Of a stretch of DNA of 64,000 nt, positions 33,051 to 60,560 are shown piece by piece (position 1 is the first letter of the stretch; each line of letters opens with the position of its first letter). The stretch is from Diaporthe sp. PMI_573 (Eukaryota; Ascomycota; Sordariomycetes; Diaporthales; Diaporthaceae). Both the position numbers and the translations under genes were made by a program. The stretch covers positions 967,121-1,031,120 of the forward strand of contig JAJTUP010000022.1 in the NCBI GenBank assembly GCA_021399435.1. The letters run 5' to 3'. The notes under the pieces were generated by a model. The model was not told the DNA's origin, did not search any database, and saw only the letters and a program-made list of their open reading frames with translations.

Positions 33051-34753
33051 TTAATCACTGTCATCCTCATCTTTGGCCGCCTTCTTGGCCTTCTTCTCGG
33101 CCTTTCTGCGCTTGCGCTCTGCCTTATCCTCTGCGGTCTCGCCATCGTGCTTCTTGCGCTTCTTGTCGGAGACACCCTCGTCCTTGGGGGTCTTTGGGGT
33201 CTTGGGAGCCTCAGCGACAACGGCAGCAGGGGCCACGGTCTGGGGCAGGTCGGCAGCAGCGGCCTCTGTGGGCTTAGCAGCGGCCGCCTCGGCACCAGCA
33301 GCGCTGTAGTCGGTGTACGAGTCCGTCCACTTGGCAGGGGTGGCCTCGTTGGGTCGTCCGTACTTGTCCAGCTTGCCGTCGGCCTTGAGCTTCTTCTTCT
33401 CTGCGGCCGTTGGGCCGAGACCCCATCTGCGAGGGTACAGGTCACGCTCCATAATGCAACGCTTGACCTTGGCGACGACGCCGTGGTCGCAGGTGGTCAT
33501 CTCGACGGCGGACATCATGGCGATACCAATGGCAATGGCCTCGCCCTTTGTCGTGATCAGAACAACCTCCTCATGCTGTTCAATCTCGGACTCATATCGC
33601 AGCAGGCCAGGCAGCATCAGCTTGGCACCGTAGGTGATGGCGTTCACCGCGCTGTCCTTGACTACGAGTCGCTTGTAGCCGACGAGCAGGGTCTCCAGAG
33701 GCTGGATCACCTTTCGCAGGTATGTCTCGTCACGGTTGTTGTCTGTCGCTCGTCAGTCACGCACTCAGGCATCCAGAGACCGCCGCACATGTACTGTGTG
33801 TAACTCACCGTATTGCCACTGGGCATCGAGCACATCGTGCAGCGTGACCAGGTCCTTGTTCTCGTCCATAGCACCAGACCGCACTCGTCGCAGTTCCTGC
33901 ATGTGCGCGCCGACACCAAGCAGCAGGCCCAGGTGAACACAGAGCGTCCGGATGTACGTGCCGGCCTCGCAGCTAACCCAGAAGACACCGAGGTGGCGGT
34001 CGTTGTCGAACTCGATGAGCTTGGACTGGTAGATGGTTCGGATACGGAGCTGACGCTTGACGGCAGAGATCAGGGGAGGGCGCTGGAAGAGCGAGCCGGT
34101 GAGCAGCTCGAGGGCGCGCGCGAACTCGGCCTGGCCGCCGGGCACCTTGTCGTGGAATCGTACGACGGCAACATACTCCTTTCCGGCTCCCTGTTGGGAC
34201 TTGACCAGACGCGTGGCGCGGTCCACGCAGACGATCAGACATCCTGTAACTTTGGGGTCGAGGGTACCGCTGTGGCCGGTCTTCTCGGCGCGGAGCATGC
34301 GCTTCACCCACGCGACAACTTCGTGGGAAGAGGGGTTCGAGGGCTTGTCGAGCTGGGCGGGAAAATGATGTCAGTGGGTGGTTTTGGACAGACGGCAGGT
34401 CAATTCTTACGTTGATTACACCGGAAGAGACTGCCCAAAGTTAGAAAGACTTCAATTGATCTGGTTGCGGGTATGTTAGGTTGGGAACAACATACTGTAG
34501 CTCTTGATGTCTCGCATATGAGGCTTGCAGCCATGGGGAATAGGCGTGAAGTGCCCAGTCCTCACGAGGACTACGCGCCGGTTAGCAAAGCTTGCACGCC
34601 ATTTTCCAAGGTAGGCTGGCTGATTGGATCCTCACGTTTGTCATAGTTCTTGAGCAGCAACGGCCAGTCGCTGGTGTCGGCGGCTGGTGTCGTTGCCTGC
34701 GGCTTGATGATATGTTCTTCCTCTTGGGCCTTAGCCGCAACCTTGTCCGCCAT
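33051..34753 (-). CDS. CBF5: Cbf5/dyskerin, H/ACA snoRNP pseudouridine synthase
   Basis: Five exons: 34636-34753, 34496-34570, 34411-34430 (20 bases), 33809-34352 and 33051-33742, giving 482 residues. Splicing restores the family sequence throughout ([48 protein letters not shown]). The catalytic Asp is D103 in [11 protein letters not shown]. The TruB fold is followed by a PUA domain (about 275-350; [39 protein letters not shown]) and a Lys/Glu/Asp-rich tail ([23 protein letters not shown]) that resembles the yeast KKE repeats and would act in nucleolar localisation. The enzyme pseudouridylates rRNA guided by H/ACA RNAs. Third-exon size is remarkable and requires accurate exon definition. It diverges from the tRNA-Pro gene by about 300 bases. 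Confidence 0.97.
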
Positions 34754-35058: not shown

Positions 35059-35190
35059 GGCTCAATGGTCTAGTCGTATGATTCTTGCTTTGGGTAAAAC
35101 GCACTGCAAGAGGCCCGTAAGTTCAACCGCACACCCACTGAAAGTTCCATATCTAACACAAACCAGCGGGTTCAAATCCCGGTTGAGCCC
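35059..35190 (+). tRNA. tRNA-Pro(UGG) with a canonical intron and a GT-AG insert in the T stem
   Basis: Acceptor stem GGCTCAA (35059-35065) pairs with TTGAGCC (35183-35189), discriminator C. D arm 35068-35082; anticodon stem CTTGC (35084-35088) with GCAAG (35106-35110); loop TT-TGG-G-T. A 10-base intron (35095-35104) sits after position 37, the normal tRNA-intron site. The T arm would be CCGGG-TTCAAAT-CCCGG, but its 5' strand is split after the first C (35116) by 50 bases (35117-35166) that start GTAAGT and end CAG. One D-loop G of the usual GG pair appears replaced (AGTCG where AGTGG is usual), which may weaken tertiary contacts. A Pol III T-run follows at 35204. Either a functional tRNA gene with a second, mRNA-type intron or a well-preserved pseudogene. 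Confidence 0.85.
35117..35166 (+). other. Spliceosomal-type intron-like insert inside the tRNA T stem
   Basis: 50 bases with a perfect 5' splice consensus GTAAGT, a branch-point CTAAC at 35153-35157, and CCAG at the end with the branch A 10 bases from the acceptor. Size and signals equal those of the protein-gene introns in this window. Excision joins AGGCCC to CGGGTTC and restores five T-stem pairs. The split falls at positions 49/50 of the tRNA, far from where the tRNA endonuclease cuts. Confidence 0.8.
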
Positions 35191-35203: not shown

Positions 35204-35209
35204 TTTTTT
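35204..35209 (+). terminator. Pol III T-run after tRNA-Pro
   Basis: Six consecutive T residues 14 bases past the discriminator base, the usual RNA polymerase III stop signal. A further T36 run follows at 35228-35263. Confidence 0.7.
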
Positions 35210-41214: not shown

Positions 41215-43550
41215 GTTGGACTTTTGCCGACGTCCTGTGATCTATCAGCAAGGCGGTCTGGCTCAGCTGGTGCTTGTCTCGCGACGGCGACGGAGCGGCC
41301 TCTAAGAGGGGAGAGCCTATGGCGCCCAAGCGGAACAAGGAGGCACCCGAAGTGGACCTTGAGGCAGCGAACGGACAGACTGACCTTGGGTAGCGGGCGA
41401 AGACGGCGACGCAGACACAGGAACCACGGAGAGGTTCTGGGGCCCGGGCCTAGCGCGGAGCTTATAGCCGAAGAAGCTAAGCGGTCTCGCGGTTGGCACG
41501 GGGAGACTAGGTTGGGCTGCAAGGGCGCGAGGGTTTAGGCTGTGCAGGCCAGAGGAGCGAGCCCAAAATGGCAGAAGTGCCCTCCGTTGTGCCCTCCGAA
41601 GTGCCTCTGAGGTTTTCATGACACGTCGAGGCCGTCAGGGTCGTCCCGGTTTCCCGAACTGATTGGGTGCGGTGTAGGGTAGGGGCGGGAAGGAGTGAGC
41701 CTTGCAAGACCCAGACACACGGACTCCCCAAGTGCCGGCAGGGCCCAGATTTATTCGACTTGCAGGCTAGAGGCGCACAGTGGCTGCCCGTCTCGTCCTG
41801 CACCAGCCAACCGACGCCAACCTCTACGCGCCAAGCCTAAATGAGGCTTTTCAAGACGACGATTGTTTTGTTTCTTTCCCATGTCTTCTTGTCTCCTTGA
41901 AGAAGCTCTCGATGTTGCTCAGACCAGTTGCCATCATCAGCTGACCTTCACTCTGTGCCCGGCGTATCTGAGATCTTGTCCCTCACTGTGCTGCCGCTGC
42001 CGGAATAACCATGTTACCGCATCGCTGTCCCCCATTCAAGTCTTTCTCACACTCGTGCAGTTCACTTCATTAATACTAGGTCGCCCATTCAAGTCCTGCC
42101 TCGATGCTATTAGTCCGTAGTACTTGAGAAATTCTGTTCGTTCCATGCAGCTATCGTTGGCAGACTGGTCAGTATTTGAAATGGACGAGGCCAACTGTAT
42201 CGACTTCGCCCGCACAAGGCTAATCTGGTTCATGTGATATAGTAGAGGATTCCATGGCTTGAGATGGCCAATTTTTCCAATATTTGTTCAGTAGGCCAAC
42301 TCGGCTGCGACTTTCACTTGCAGCTAAACGAGGAATGAGTGTCACATCTCGGCAACCTCGCTGAGGTGACCACAAGGAGCCGGTAGGTTGCTGCCGATTC
42401 GCCATCCTTTTGCGTCACAAACATGGCCAATCTTCTCTGCTGATAAGAATTGCAGCTTGGAAATAAACCTGACTGAGACCGCCGCCTTTCATAGTAGGCT
42501 CCGTTGCCTTAATCCTGTCTGGCCTTTGAGTCATGAGAACTCCACCTATAGTTCACGATTGTGTTCAAACGAGCACATACGGCCATAGATATAGGAAAAT
42601 ACGGGATCCCGTCCGCTCTCCCTTAGTCAAGCCTATAATCGATAGACTACCTATCGTCGCCGTTTTGGCCTCCCCCCCGTGGCCACGGAGGACAGCCGGC
42701 CGCGCCAAGCCCGGCCTTCGGGGTCTGACTACCGTTTCCCTACCGTATATTGCAACGCCCGTCCAACCCGCCCCTCCAGTGCTGGCACTGTCCGCCTGGT
42801 CAGACTGAGGCCTCCCATGCTATACAGACGCCCCTCCTTCACGGCGGTCTCACCTTGTGGTCCCGCGGTGCCCTCACGATCCACGGCCTTTGCGCACGGA
42901 GCTCGTGTGTTGGTTGGGAAGTTTCTCCTCATCATCAGGGGCGCAGCAGGCCCAACAGTTGCGGTCTCACGGCTGACGGCCAAGTGGATCTGTTCCTTCA
43001 TTGTTTAGTTTTTGTTTTCTATCTTCCATCTCCTTGGAGTGCGTTTTTCTATATGTTATAATTAAACTTGCGTGGAATCGTCGAGGCTGCCGTTATACAT
43101 TACCCTCCAAGTAAAAACCAGTATACCAGCAGTCATGAATGGAGCTCTCCTGCCCCTGAGAGGAGATACACCAACTTCCACTCGTACCAAAACTGCGGCC
43201 TTGCACGAACCTAGGATCCCGCGGCCGCATGCTCGGTTGTCCTCGTAAAGAGGGTCTCATGCTGGGGTGCTGGAACACACTTACAGTCCATGCCACCCAG
43301 TCCTCAGCATGCCCTTGATCTCAGCCAGGGTCATAAATCTGGATGCACTATTCCGCGCCTAGATATGCAGCCGAATCACCAACAGAGACACGACAGCCTC
43401 TCGAGGTAGGATCACGAGGGCATCACACAACACGGGCTGACCCTGTTATGCAACACACACCCAGCCAGGAGACACGGTATCCACCCATCATGAGGCGTTT
43501 TGTGTAGCCTTGCTTGTATGCCCCGGTGAAAGCCTCGCCCTCGGAAGTAA
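41215..43550. other. Gene-poor stretch
   Basis: No gene is supported. The first ~400 bases are GC-rich and are probably the promoter of the amidase gene; the rest holds overlapping short frames on both strands only. Confidence 0.5.
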
Positions 43551-55392: not shown

Positions 55393-56985
55393 CTACTCCA
55401 CTAACTCTACTAGGCCAAGCTGGCCTAGAAACACCTGAAATTTAGGTGCTGGAAGGGCTTTTGTAAGCCCGTCTGCTACCATTTTACTGGTCTCTAGGTA
55501 TTTAACCTCGAGGGTCCCCTTCTGAACTTCAGCACGTAGGTAGTGGTACCTTAGAAGGGTGTGCTTAGTTCTTTGGTGGTGTGAGGGGTCCTTAGCAGTG
55601 GAGATAGCGCCCGTATTATCTCCATAGAGGATTGTAGGCCTTAGAATAGGCCTATTCAGCTCTGTATAGAGCCCACGAAGCCACTGGATTTCCCTAGTAG
55701 CCTCTATAAGCCCTATAAATTCAGCCTCTAGCGTAGATAACGCTATAGTGCTTCCTCGCTTCGATTTCCAAGAAATAGGCCCCCCACCTAAGGTAAATAC
55801 ATACCCGTAGGTTGACTTTGAGGAGGCCTTATCTCCAGCATAGTCGCTATCAGAATAGCCTATAGGCTCTAAAAGAGAGCTCTGTAGAGGGTTTTTTAGG
55901 CCCTTTGCAGAATACCTGATAGCTAGTTGTCGGTGGCTATTAAGGTACCTAAATAGGTTCTGAGCAGCAGATAGGTGCTGAAGCTTAGAAGCTTGAAAAG
56001 CCCTAGCTAACCACTGGACCGGAAAGCTTATATCAGGCCTAGTTTGGGTTACTAAATACATAGCGGTACCCACTATAGCCTGAAAACGCTTATGTCGAAT
56101 TCGGTCTAGTGTAGGCCCTTCGATAGGGCCTAAATTAATTAAATTTGGCTGGAGAGGAACTGAAATAGGCCTAGAACCCTCTAAATTGAAGGTTCTAATA
56201 GCTTCCTCTATGTACTGGCTCTGAGAGAGCCATAGGGTTCGGTTAGAGCGGTCCCTAATAATTCGAACCCCTAGAAAGAAGCTTGCAGGGCCCCTATCTT
56301 CTATAGCGTATGCCTTATGTATTTGTCTCTTTAAGGCCTGAATTTTCGAGATTCCAGGCCCTATAATTAGGCAATCATCGACGTAGGTTACTATAAATAG
56401 GCCTGACGTCCTGCTGTAGAAGACGGCGGAGTCTGAGAGTAGTGGCTCAAAGCCTAAGCTTTTCAGAAGGTTAATAACTATCTGTTGCCACTCTCTAGGG
56501 GCCTGCTTCAGGCCATACAGCGCTTTATTCAGCCGAATTATCTGCTGAATAGAGGGGTTATAGCCAGCTTTAGCTAATAGCCTTTGGATAAGGCTACTGG
56601 CTTGAGCTGCAAATTCTTTAAAACCCTCTGGAAGCGCCATAAAGACCTGTTCTTTCAGCGTACCGTTTAGGAAGGCACCTATAAAATCGATCTGCTCGAT
56701 TTCCCAGTCTAGAATAGCGGCTAGCGCTAGTAGTACCCTCCAGGTAGGGGGGGTAGAGGTAGAGGCAAAAGTATCTGTATAATCTACTCCTTCTCTCTGT
56801 TGGAACCCTCTAACTACTAATCGAGCTTTAAACTTAAAAACTCGATTATTCTCGTCCTTTTTCTCTCTTAGGACTAGTCGACTAGTAATAGGCTTTCGAC
56901 CTTCTGGAAGCTTACTATCTGGCCAAAATTCGAGGGTATTTTGCAGAATGATCTGCTCAAATTCACTATAGATCGCCTTTAGCTA
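55393..56985 (-). pseudogene. Copia 2 reverse transcriptase and RNase H
   Basis: Continuous from just after the TAG at 56983 to the natural end at 55393. RT landmarks: VVRGFQQREGVDY, NKALYGLKQAPREW and the catalytic YVDD in FIVTYVDDCLIIG. RNase H: GYSDSDYAGD, STLEAEF, ILYGDNTGA and KHTLLRYHYLR supply the Asp/Glu/Asp/His active site. The piece from MALPEG at 56640 on is free of stops (415 codons), so the polymerase end is the best preserved part. It would be translated only as part of Gag-Pol, which upstream stops prevent. Confidence 0.9.
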
Positions 56986-58920
56986 TTTAGCCCTATTAGG
57001 GCTTTTTAGCACCTGTTTCCAGGTCTGGGGGGCTTGGGCATTAGTTGTACTATATGCCTTTTGGCGTGTTTTCTCAAAAATAGAGAAGACGATCTGTTTA
57101 GCGTATGATAGGTCCATTTCTTCAGGTAGAGTTGGACCTAAACCCTCTGGGGACGACTTTGTAGGGCCTAAAGTAGGCCCTATATCCTCTAATTCCCCGG
57201 AACCCTCTGGGGGGTCCCCTTCTGCAGAGAGTGCAGGTAAGCCTGAGAGAGGCTCTTCTGGGGGGTCTAAAATAGGCCCGGCAGGTACTACAGGGCCTGA
57301 GAGAGGCCCAGTAGGTTCTAAAGGGTCTGAGAGAGGCCCTTCAGCGGTTGTAGGGTCTATATCCCTATCTAGAGGGTCTGAGAGACCCTCTACTACCCCT
57401 TCTGGCCCAAAACCGCCACTAGTATCTATACTGCTTAAATCCTCGTAAATCTTCACAATAGAGGTTTTCAAAACAGTATGCCTTTTAGGGATATATACTT
57501 GGTATATATTATTCCCTAATACTGCTAACAAATAGCCTGTTTCAGTCCTCGGGGCTAGTTTATAGCCCTTTGGACGCTTTTCTTCAGGTAGGAAGACCTC
57601 ACAGCGAGCCCCTATAACCCTGTACCTCTTCAGAAGGGGTTTATGGGTTTTAGAAGGCTCTAGCCCATCGTGAAGCTCTTGATAGGCTGTAAGGTCTCTA
57701 TTTGTAAGAGCAGTAGAGTTAATTAACTCTAAAACGGCAGGTATAGTAAAACACCATAGATATAGCGGTAGGCCTGCAGCAAGCATAGTAGCCCTTAAAC
57801 GGTCCAGAATAACTCTAATAGAGCGTTCTATTAGACCGTTTTGCTCGTGGATATAGGGGCTGCTAGTTGAAAACTCTATGCCTTTGTGCTGTAGCCAGGC
57901 CTGTAGGCTAGCATTTATCTCCTTCCCACCGTCAAAATGGAAGCCCTTAGGGTACCGCCCAAATAGGGCTTTCAAGGACCTAAAAAAGCCCTTAATGGTA
58001 TCCATAATAGGGTCTCCATCTCGGCTTTTTAGCAGGAAAAGCCACCGAAATCTAGACTTTCTATCCACTATTAGTAGCCCAATAGGGCACTTATTATAGG
58101 GCATAGGCTTAATAGAAAAGGTGTCCCCTTCTAAAGAGTCTAATATACCCTCTGGATCGTCTATAGGCCTATGGTTAAGCCTACGGACCGCCTTAGCTCT
58201 ATCGCAGGCTAGGCAGAGAAAGTCCCCTTCTGAAATCGAATCAAAATTAGGTACCCCTTGGGCAATTTTAGCCGTCTTCTTCAGTAGACGAAGGCTTATA
58301 TGCCCTAATCTCTTATGCCAGAGATAAGCTAGTTTGAGTAGCTTAGGGGACCCTTCAGAAGGTTTAGCCTGAATAGGCTGTCTGGTGGCCTTTCTAGAAG
58401 GCGAGAGGCCCTCTAAAAGGAGATCTTCTAGGTCCTCTGTGGCCCTACCCCCCCTATTTCCTACAGGCGTTTCTGGCCGAGAGGGCGAAAGACCTATAGA
58501 AGGGGGCGTGCGAGGGACCCGTACCGGAAGACCCTGTATCTCAGGGTTAGGCTTCTGTAGCCCAGAACCTGAGGCAGTAGAGCCTGTAGAGGACCCGGAA
58601 GGGCCTAATTCTTCTGTAAGAATAGGCTCTTTAGGGGTAGGGATTTTTTCATAGTCCCTAGCTGCCTCCCTATTAAAAGGGGGCAGCACTATCTCCAAAG
58701 CTTTCGTACTACTACTGGGGACATAGTATATACTATTTGCTTGGGTAGAATAGGCTTGTGGGGCCTGTACCCCCTTCTGAGGGATAAAAAATCCCGTTTT
58801 AGAAGGGTCTAAGTGTATAATTGGTTGCTGATTAGCCCTATAGAGAGTTTTTCTCGAAAGATAACCCCCTGCATTATAGTGTCGAAGACCACTAAAAATG
58901 CTTATATCCATAGAGGGCAC
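56983..58920 (-). pseudogene. Copia 2 integrase block
   Basis: 645 codons without a stop. A Pro/Ser/Gly-rich region is followed by the zinc-binding H...H...C...C pre-integrase segment (LWHKRLGHISLRLL, FLCLACDRAK), then the DDE catalytic core: Asp in LLIVDRKSR, Asp in FHFDGGKE, Glu in QNGLIERSI. The C-terminal part is rich in Pro/Glu/Gly repeats (EGPLSDPLEPTGPLS). It ends with a TAG at a position where a Trp codon would continue into the RT block. The zinc and DDE residues are all intact. Confidence 0.92.
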
Positions 58921-60560
58921 AAATAGTGCCTCTTTTAGGACTAGACGCTTAGTCTTGGCTGGGTTTTCAGGGCTAACTACCTAAAATACAGCGTCGCCTC
59001 TACCTGAGGGGTAAACTCTACCCCCACCTGTCTGTAGGTACCCAAAATCGCCGGTAGTCACTAAATTAGTGAATAAAGAACGGCTATTTACTATATATAC
59101 TGTAGAACCAGTATCATACAGTAGGGCAGTAGGCCCTCTAAAAGGCCTAGAAGGCCTAGAAGGCTTAAAAGGCTTAGGGCCCTTTTTGGAGGACCCTTCC
59201 GACTGTAGGCCCCTGTAGCAGTGTTTACAGGGGCTCTCTGAGGCTATAGACAAGCTGTCTGAATTACTAGCCTCATCACCTAGAGAATAGCTTTTATTAG
59301 GAGCTAATTCTTCATCACTATAAGCTGAATAGCCTACGGCATAGGTATAGTTCTCTGAATCTTTAGAAGACTCTTTAGAGGACTCCCCACTAGCAGATTT
59401 CGGCTTAGTAGATTTTTTCTTGCTACTAGAGCCGCTGGATCCCTTATTAGGCTTATTTTCTTCAGCCTTTTTAGGGTCCTTCTGCTGATTTTCAGGCTTT
59501 TTAGGGCCTGAAGGAGGTTTATTACCCCCTTTAGCAACCTGATAGGATGCTGAAGACGGATTTCTAGTCTCTTCCAGTATATTTGCCATAAGGAACTGTA
59601 GATTTAGCCTATCTATAGGCTGGCCCGTAGCTTTTAGCGTACAGATAGTTTCTCTAAGCCGCTCTGCCTACTGTGGAAAAGCCCTTTCCAGGGAGCTAAG
59701 GTACTAATTTATTAGGTCAGTAGGCTCTATTTGGGCGCCAGCTAGCCGTAGTCTGGAAACTAGGCTATTAAATCTAGCGTTAAATTCCGCTAGATTGGTG
59801 CCAGAAGTATACCGTAAGAAGTAAAATTCCCTATACAGCGAGTCTCTCTGTAGACCTATAGAGTAGAAATACTGGTCTTTTAGAAGCCTGTAGGCTTCCG
59901 AAGGGCCTGAGATCCAAGCAATAGCAGCTTGTAGGCCTGAAGATAGGCTATCTCTCAAGAACATTAAGAGAATAGCCTAATCGCTATTGCTTAGGCTATC
60001 TGCTACAGAAGGGTTGTCCAAAAATTAGCTATACCCTATAGCCCGTAGCATAATAGCTAGTGCTTGCTTCTACTGGTTGAAATTTTCAGGGCCTTTTAGG
60101 CAATAGGTCTCTAGAAAGGTATATACCTTTTTAGAGAGCTCCCTACTAAAATCGGGGCTAAATCTAGTAGATTCTGGCTGCCTTCTAGGACCCGTAGGCC
60201 CAGAATTAGGGCTCGTAGGCCCTATAGAAAGACTTTCAGTGTCCATAGGCTCCGGGGGAGCTCGCTGGGACACCTAGAGTACTGGCTGAGGCACCTATGA
60301 CGCCTAAGGCGCCTAGGCTACTAGAACCGACAGGCTCTGAATAGCAGTAGTTAATTCCCCTAGCATACCCTGAAGGGTACTGCTAGTAGCTACTTATTGA
60401 GCTAATAGCTCTGATACTGAATCTAAACGGCTATTTAGGTACAACATCTGCTGATCCTAAACCTTAAAATGCTTTAAAAGAGCGCCTAAAAAGAGGTTCA
60501 GACCCCTAGAAATTAGGGGTAGACCCCTCTATAAAGGTCTCGGAAGCCATGCTGGATAGC
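58921..60560 (-). pseudogene. Copia 2 Gag and protease block
   Basis: Broken into several frames by TAG/TAA codons. The largest piece (58981-59589) carries the end of Gag with Lys/Ser-rich low complexity (SSSKKKSTKPKS) and a short Cys/His knuckle-like SPCKHCYRG, then the aspartic protease active site LLYDTGSTVYIV. The piece 59704-59964 has the capsid-like segment FLRDSLSSGLQAAIAW and YREFYFLRYTSGTNLAEF. The piece ending at 60273 is the Pro-rich N-terminal region. Stops between the pieces fall where Trp or Gln fits (for instance RAFPQ-stop-AERLR). Exact Gag start not determined. Confidence 0.8.

Follow-up and report, generated by a model that had tools for sequence, protein, structure and literature searches.

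We suggest that working tRNA-Pro genes of Diaporthe sp. PMI_573, which are transcribed by RNA polymerase III (Pol III), have ordinary U2-type spliceosomal introns inserted in their variable region or T arm, and that both genes found for the UGG-anticodon tRNA are spliceosome-dependent. On the basis of sequence comparisons, the probability of this reading is roughly 0.84. The gene at positions 35059-35190 of the window (the whole analysed stretch of DNA, 64,000 nucleotides) is a tRNA-Pro gene with a TGG anticodon, whose acceptor strands GGCTCAA and TTGAGCC pair with each other. It is interrupted twice, by 10 nt of intron that follow G37 in the anticodon loop and by a 50-nt insert between C49 and C50. 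Sites follow standard tRNA numbering and were assigned by hand, and the A and B boxes of the tRNA-Pro genes are what we take to be such from customary box naming and consensus. The features of the gene are as follows.

35059..35094, + strand: tRNA-Pro(UGG) exon 1, with the 5' strand of the acceptor stem, the D arm, the 5' strand of the anticodon stem and the loop up to G37; identical in the second UGG copy (L009, contig C151)
35066..35077, + strand: presumed A-box region of the internal Pol III promoter, at about positions 8-19
35095..35104, + strand: conventional 37/38 intron, 10 nt, TAAAACGCAC
35105..35116, + strand: tRNA exon 2, with position 38, the 3' strand of the anticodon stem, the variable region and C49
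35117..35166, + strand: putative spliceosomal-type intron of 50 nt at positions 49/50, placed from the sequence and by the T-stem cut test; L009 has one at the same site
35117..35122, + strand: 5' splice site GTAAGT, present in all four tRNA-Pro inserts
35153..35157, + strand: branch-site motif CTAAC, present in all four inserts; the presumed branch A is 35156, with 8 nt between it and AG
35164..35166, + strand: 3' splice site CAG, present in all four inserts
35167..35190, + strand: tRNA exon 3, with the remainder of the T arm, the 3' strand of the acceptor stem and the discriminator C
35169..35179, + strand: presumed B box GGTTCAAATCC of the internal promoter, wholly 3' of the intron
35204..35209, + strand: run of six T, a likely Pol III terminator, followed by more T runs

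The gene coordinates 35059-35190, the UGG anticodon, a 10-nt intron beside the anticodon and the 50-nt insert (35117-35166) had been proposed in a sequence-only reading, and were reproduced exactly when the sequence was read again, with the 10-nt intron at 35095-35104. The same is true of the GTAAGT start, the CTAAC motif and the CAG end, as well as of the T arm CCGGG/TTCAAAT/CCCGG which is rebuilt when GT...AG is removed. The accompanying statement that no other cut gives an intact T arm was slightly too strong: when G-U pairs are allowed, 9 of 325 cuts in each UGG gene give a five-pair T stem. Only the GT-AG cut among them has the insert's own length.

The genome (83.7 Mb in 217 contigs) was searched with a pattern consisting of the proline D arm and anticodon with at most three mismatches, the reversed sequence serving as control. 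This pattern search detected seven tRNA-Pro genes (two TGG, four AGG and one CGG) and none in the control. An insert of the form GTAAGT...CTAAC...CAG is present in four of the seven, namely both UGG genes (L008, the window gene, and L009) and two AGG genes (L013 and L014), and the spacing from branch A to AG is 8 or 9 nt in every case. In the remaining two AGG genes and in the CGG gene, the anticodon-loop intron is the sole interruption. As three further tRNA-Pro genes have an insert like that of the window gene, it is more than a chance occurrence. The inserts of the four carriers are distributed as follows.

L008 (window gene) and L009 (contig C151), UGG: inserts at 49/50, 50 and 51 nt
L013, AGG: insert at 48/49, 56 nt
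L014, AGG: insert at 46/47, 59 nt

In the AGG genes, the T-stem test is not discriminating (178 and 201 of 325 cuts pass in L013 and L014, 13 and 15 of them at insert length), because their inserts lie outside the stem. Comparison with the intronless AGG paralogue L012 was used for these two genes. L013 can be cut to equal the 35-nt 3' part of L012 in a single way, which is GT...AG (35/35 nt), and L014 in two equivalent ways, one of which is GT...AG (again 35/35 nt). The original proposal, that this nuclear tRNA gene contains an intron of the mRNA type and would need the spliceosome, is therefore supported by four carriers among seven genes at three nearby positions, by the recovery of the intronless paralogue upon excision from the AGG genes, and by splice signals which are kept while the interiors of the inserts drift.

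We compared the inserts with mRNA introns of the same genome. The pattern GTAAGTTCA...CTAAC...CAG had 14 genome matches versus 6 in the reversed control, three of the 14 being tRNA-Pro inserts. Five of the other eleven matches (L026, L027, L032, L035 and L036) served as protein-gene controls; splicing them opens frames that are 87-200 codons long within the part read. Among the interrupted frames, L026 is glutamine synthetase-like and L036 is CPSF73-like, and a GH16-like frame also occurs, all three named by eye. L037 and L038 (copies of each other with short frames), L025 and L031 (open without splicing for 67 and 119 codons) and the less clear L030 and L034 were left out. The control introns are 51, 51, 55, 60 and 63 nt long versus 50-59 nt for the tRNA-Pro inserts, and have 6-14 nt between branch A and AG versus 8-9 nt. 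Since the pattern contains the splice signals and limits the length, these controls show that the format exists in this genome, not that it is typical. A distance from branch site to acceptor of 6-36 nt is given for fungi in a part of an earlier study (PMC5832005). The tRNA-Pro inserts have GT-AG ends with the fungal 5' consensus, a matching branch distance and, in the two AGG genes, an excision that agrees with a homologue, which are characteristics of U2-type introns.

The claim that the insert matches the protein-gene introns of the window in size needs correction. Those which we could place in the window, in the Cbf5-like and RFC4-like genes, are about 65, 66 and 72 nt long, were picked among several candidates and start with GTGAG or GTGCG; the five introns of 51-63 nt lie elsewhere and come from the length-limiting pattern. 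No candidate emerged for a further Cbf5 intron in the window. The Cbf5/dyskerin-like gene, recognized by eye from its translation, contains introns and occupies about 33051-34752 on the minus strand, divergent from the tRNA gene. Frames resembling a Ty1/copia retrotransposon (by eye) were observed at 55393-59589 of the window, also on the minus strand, in a stretch of lower G+C content. In protein searches, the best hits with a name were Sordariomycetes for RFC4, at 92-93%, and Cytospora for the GH43 protein, at 55%; proteins from metagenomes matched the latter at 80-85%.

The two UGG genes have identical mature sequences over 72 nt after removal of both introns. Their upstream 100 bases show near-random likeness (83 of 500 shuffles as good), and there is a mild likeness between the downstream 100 bases, which are T-rich in both (8 of 500). 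From the 5' site to the branch site, the interiors of the two inserts show no clear likeness (122 of 1000 shuffles score as well), and GTAAGT, CTAAC and CAG are the parts kept in all four inserts. Over the six possible pairs of inserts, 122, 431, 33, 627, 881 and 24 of 1000 shuffles were as good as or better than the real interiors. With the branch site included, the corresponding counts out of 500 were 18 for L008/L009 (mild likeness), 180 for L008/L013 and 0 for L013/L014, suggesting that the two AGG inserts may share ancestry. The three insertion sites lie within four nucleotides and may reflect either repeated gain or a single gain followed by sliding. It is likely that, in this lineage, spliceosomal introns have spread into nuclear tRNA genes, with tRNA-Pro affected at three neighbouring sites, to the extent that every UGG gene found is spliceosome-dependent.

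Judging from the sequence and a T-run scan, each carrier has both boxes of the internal promoter, A and B, and is followed by a T run. The B box is retained 3' of the intron in all four, and the intron widens the distance between the A and B boxes by 50-59 bp, an added spacing that TFIIIC should tolerate. The first run of at least four T contains 6, 4, 7 and 8 T in the four carriers and starts 11-15 nt beyond the end of the gene; in the genes free of the insert it follows immediately in L010 and L012 and after 19 nt in L011. All four carriers can be drawn by hand as tRNA-Pro. In minimum free energy folds, the UGG genes from which the T-arm intron has been spliced form the acceptor, anticodon and T stems and lack the standard D arm, and the AGG carriers, with their long 37/38 introns still in place, lack the standard T arm.

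Another possibility is that the insert-bearing genes are pseudogenes and that the cell is supplied by intact copies. Such inserts are absent from two AGG genes and from the CGG gene, and wobble could cover CCA and CCG: I34 would allow the AGG tRNA to decode CCA, and CCG is the codon of the CGG tRNA. UGG tRNAs might thus be dispensable, or the need for them might be softened. In addition, according to a portion of a review of tRNA introns, inserts in the D or T arm of eukaryotic tRNA genes mostly occur in one of many synonymous genes and are supposed to mark pseudogenes (PMC4090602). On the other hand, both UGG genes found are carriers, and their mature sequences have remained identical despite drifted interiors and upstream flanks; once spliced, the AGG carriers agree with their intronless paralogue throughout the 35 positions of its 3' part, and T runs lie downstream of all four carriers. 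Exons that are kept while the interior drifts are not expected of pseudogenes. Intact UGG copies supplying the cell, named in the sequence-only reading as the observation that would speak against it, were looked for in the genome with three patterns, which gave no insert-free UGG gene, the only other UGG copy being itself a carrier. A pattern for the 3' half, which would also detect UGG genes with another D arm, gave 25 matches with at most three mismatches versus 46 in the reversed control, and the exact matches are the two known genes only. We consider the pseudogene explanation unlikely.

The inserts might also be tRNA introns of the bulge-helix-bulge (BHB) type, removed by the tRNA endonuclease. 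Ectopic tRNA introns do exist in eukaryotes and, in nucleomorphs, are found in the T arm as well, as described in part of the same review (PMC4090602), and many ectopic introns in tRNAs of Guillardia theta form no defined BHB according to sections of a second paper (PMC3978253), so that a missing BHB would not be fatal to this explanation. At the GT-AG junctions of L008, L009, L013 and L014, the 4-bp central helix has 1, 1, 3 and 2 of its four pairs in one orientation, the 3/4 of L013 being the best case for a BHB, and 0, 0, 2 and 2 in the other. With free offsets in one orientation, three genes can form a 4-pair helix, which has G-U at three of the pairs and was not counted. Two 3-nt bulges flanking a 4-bp helix were not found at the junctions of the four carriers, as scored without a 37/38 intron as positive control. 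Moreover, GTAAGT, CTAAC and CAG are kept in all four inserts while the interiors drift, and an endonuclease that reads shape would not need them. Removal by the tRNA endonuclease therefore appears unlikely. An assembly error or contamination is very unlikely, as the four carriers lie on four contigs and have four different insert sequences.

If the inserts are spliceosomal introns, Pol III would transcribe the whole tRNA-Pro gene including its introns, and the signals recognised by the spliceosome in the pre-tRNA would be GUAAGU, CUAAC as the branch site and CAG. In the nucleus, it would then join position 49 to 50 in the UGG genes (48 to 49 and 46 to 47 in the two AGG genes), rebuilding the T arm, after which RNase P, tRNase Z and, for the 37/38 intron, the tRNA splicing endonuclease would complete the tRNA. 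The spliceosome is placed first in this order because the enzymes of end processing and 37/38 splicing need an intact tRNA body. Both UGG genes found are carriers, so the supply of UGG tRNA would depend on the spliceosome. Reverse splicing or the transfer of an intron may account for the gain of the inserts, either several times or with sliding. Two other candidates were rejected. An origin from tandem duplication of the T arm was considered since GTTCA in the insert resembles the T loop, and only three further matches were observed beyond GTAAGT. Reading the insert as protein-gene sequence gave spliced frames of 39-74 codons at the three loci covered (both UGG loci and L013).

Such inserts were also sought in other tRNA families across the genome, by means of three patterns built on the branch site (two with CTAAC and one with CTGAC), and none was found by them. 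The first CTAAC pattern had 10 matches versus 4 in the reversed control: the four known carriers and six others, including the CGG tRNA-Pro and a tRNA-Lys, without a GT-AG insert at that place as judged by eye. The second had 17 matches versus 19, namely the same four and 13 others, none of them a tRNA by eye. The CTGAC pattern (16 versus 5) returned several ordinary tRNAs and, by eye, no insert-bearing one. Among 54 Rfam tRNA hits, the 20 that were read, mostly long ones, contained no GT-branch-AG stretch; only 63 of 2509 candidates were scored in that Rfam search, and its tRNA set is incomplete.

The carriers escape common detection tools. The Rfam tRNA model aligned with the window gene from end to end at 27.5 bits versus a cut-off of 29 bits, leaving the insert unaligned, and none of the four carriers reached the cut-off; the CGG gene, which has no T-arm insert, was missed too. 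ARAGORN with introns allowed detected none of the four. As genes of this kind are missed by ARAGORN and by the Rfam cut-off, similar genes may be absent from many annotations. L057 and L058 show a tRNA-Cys-like gene (anticodon GCA by eye, assigned to Arg by ARAGORN) whose long anticodon-loop intron includes GGTTCGATTTCC, a second B-box-like motif.

U6 genes of the same genome were considered as well, at least five U6 matches being obtained with 47 of 4699 candidates scored. L041 (1382-1598; contig C138 near 750.7 kb) reads by eye as a U6 gene with two GT-AG introns, 1416-1467 (52 nt) and 1477-1540 (64 nt), on either side of a 9-nt exon AGAGAAGAT. Each of the two introns holds CTAAC and a B-box-like motif, AGTTCGATTCC. 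Judging from a title cited in another article, U6 introns of Schizosaccharomyces are known to contain B-box motifs (PMC10484740). By eye, the U6-like L040 and L042 have a GT-AG insert at different places, L043 is without a middle part, and L039 is diverged and intronless, with a TATA-like stretch upstream. A 5S rRNA match of 94 nt was also observed in the window at 42575-42668 (42.9 bits, cut-off 38); part of the molecule is missing, and it is perhaps a 5S pseudogene.

In the eukaryotic textbook view, as put in part of a 2026 review, tRNA splicing is independent of the spliceosome (PMC13149111), and no term starting with "spliceosom" occurs in a review of tRNA introns from 2014 (PMC4090602). 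No spliceosomal intron in a nuclear tRNA gene was found in the open-licence literature by title and start of abstract; an earlier report in a subscription journal could exist. If our reading is true, a tRNA with only spliceosome-needing genes would break the rule of spliceosome-independent tRNA splicing. Transcripts of tRNA genes would join the substrates of the spliceosome, Pol III tRNA transcripts would become targets of intron gain, and translation would be linked directly to pre-mRNA splicing. These genes would also provide a natural case of intron gain where no reading frame has to be protected.

Several known systems resemble the tRNA-Pro genes in part. Fungal nuclear rRNA genes also carry mRNA-type introns in a structured RNA that is not made by Pol II, the difference being that rRNA is a Pol I transcript; a 1993 paper on 18S rDNA, cited in PMC11782384, reportedly concerns such spliceosomal introns. 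The ectopic tRNA introns of archaea, Cyanidioschyzon merolae and nucleomorphs are likewise located outside 37/38, some of them in the T arm, as described in parts of two papers (PMC4090602, PMC3978253). Those of C. merolae and archaea are explained there by the tRNA endonuclease and its BHB, whereas the tRNA-Pro inserts have spliceosomal signals and no convincing BHB. The nucleomorph introns are described in the same sources as very short (3-24 nt), with their mode of removal unknown. Spliceosomal introns also occur in fungal U3 snoRNA genes, in which a structured small RNA, though a different one from tRNA, has GT-AG introns at several positions and paralogues with and without them; according to a section of the 2017 paper that describes them, frequent interruption by an intron is known, among small structured RNAs, for U3 and U6 only (PMC5832005). 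Similar to the tRNA-Pro genes, fungal U6 snRNA genes are Pol III genes for a small RNA with a short GT-AG intron and the fungal branch site. The host RNA is a tRNA in the present case, and the U6 introns of this genome hold a B-box-like motif, whereas the B box of the tRNA genes is exonic.
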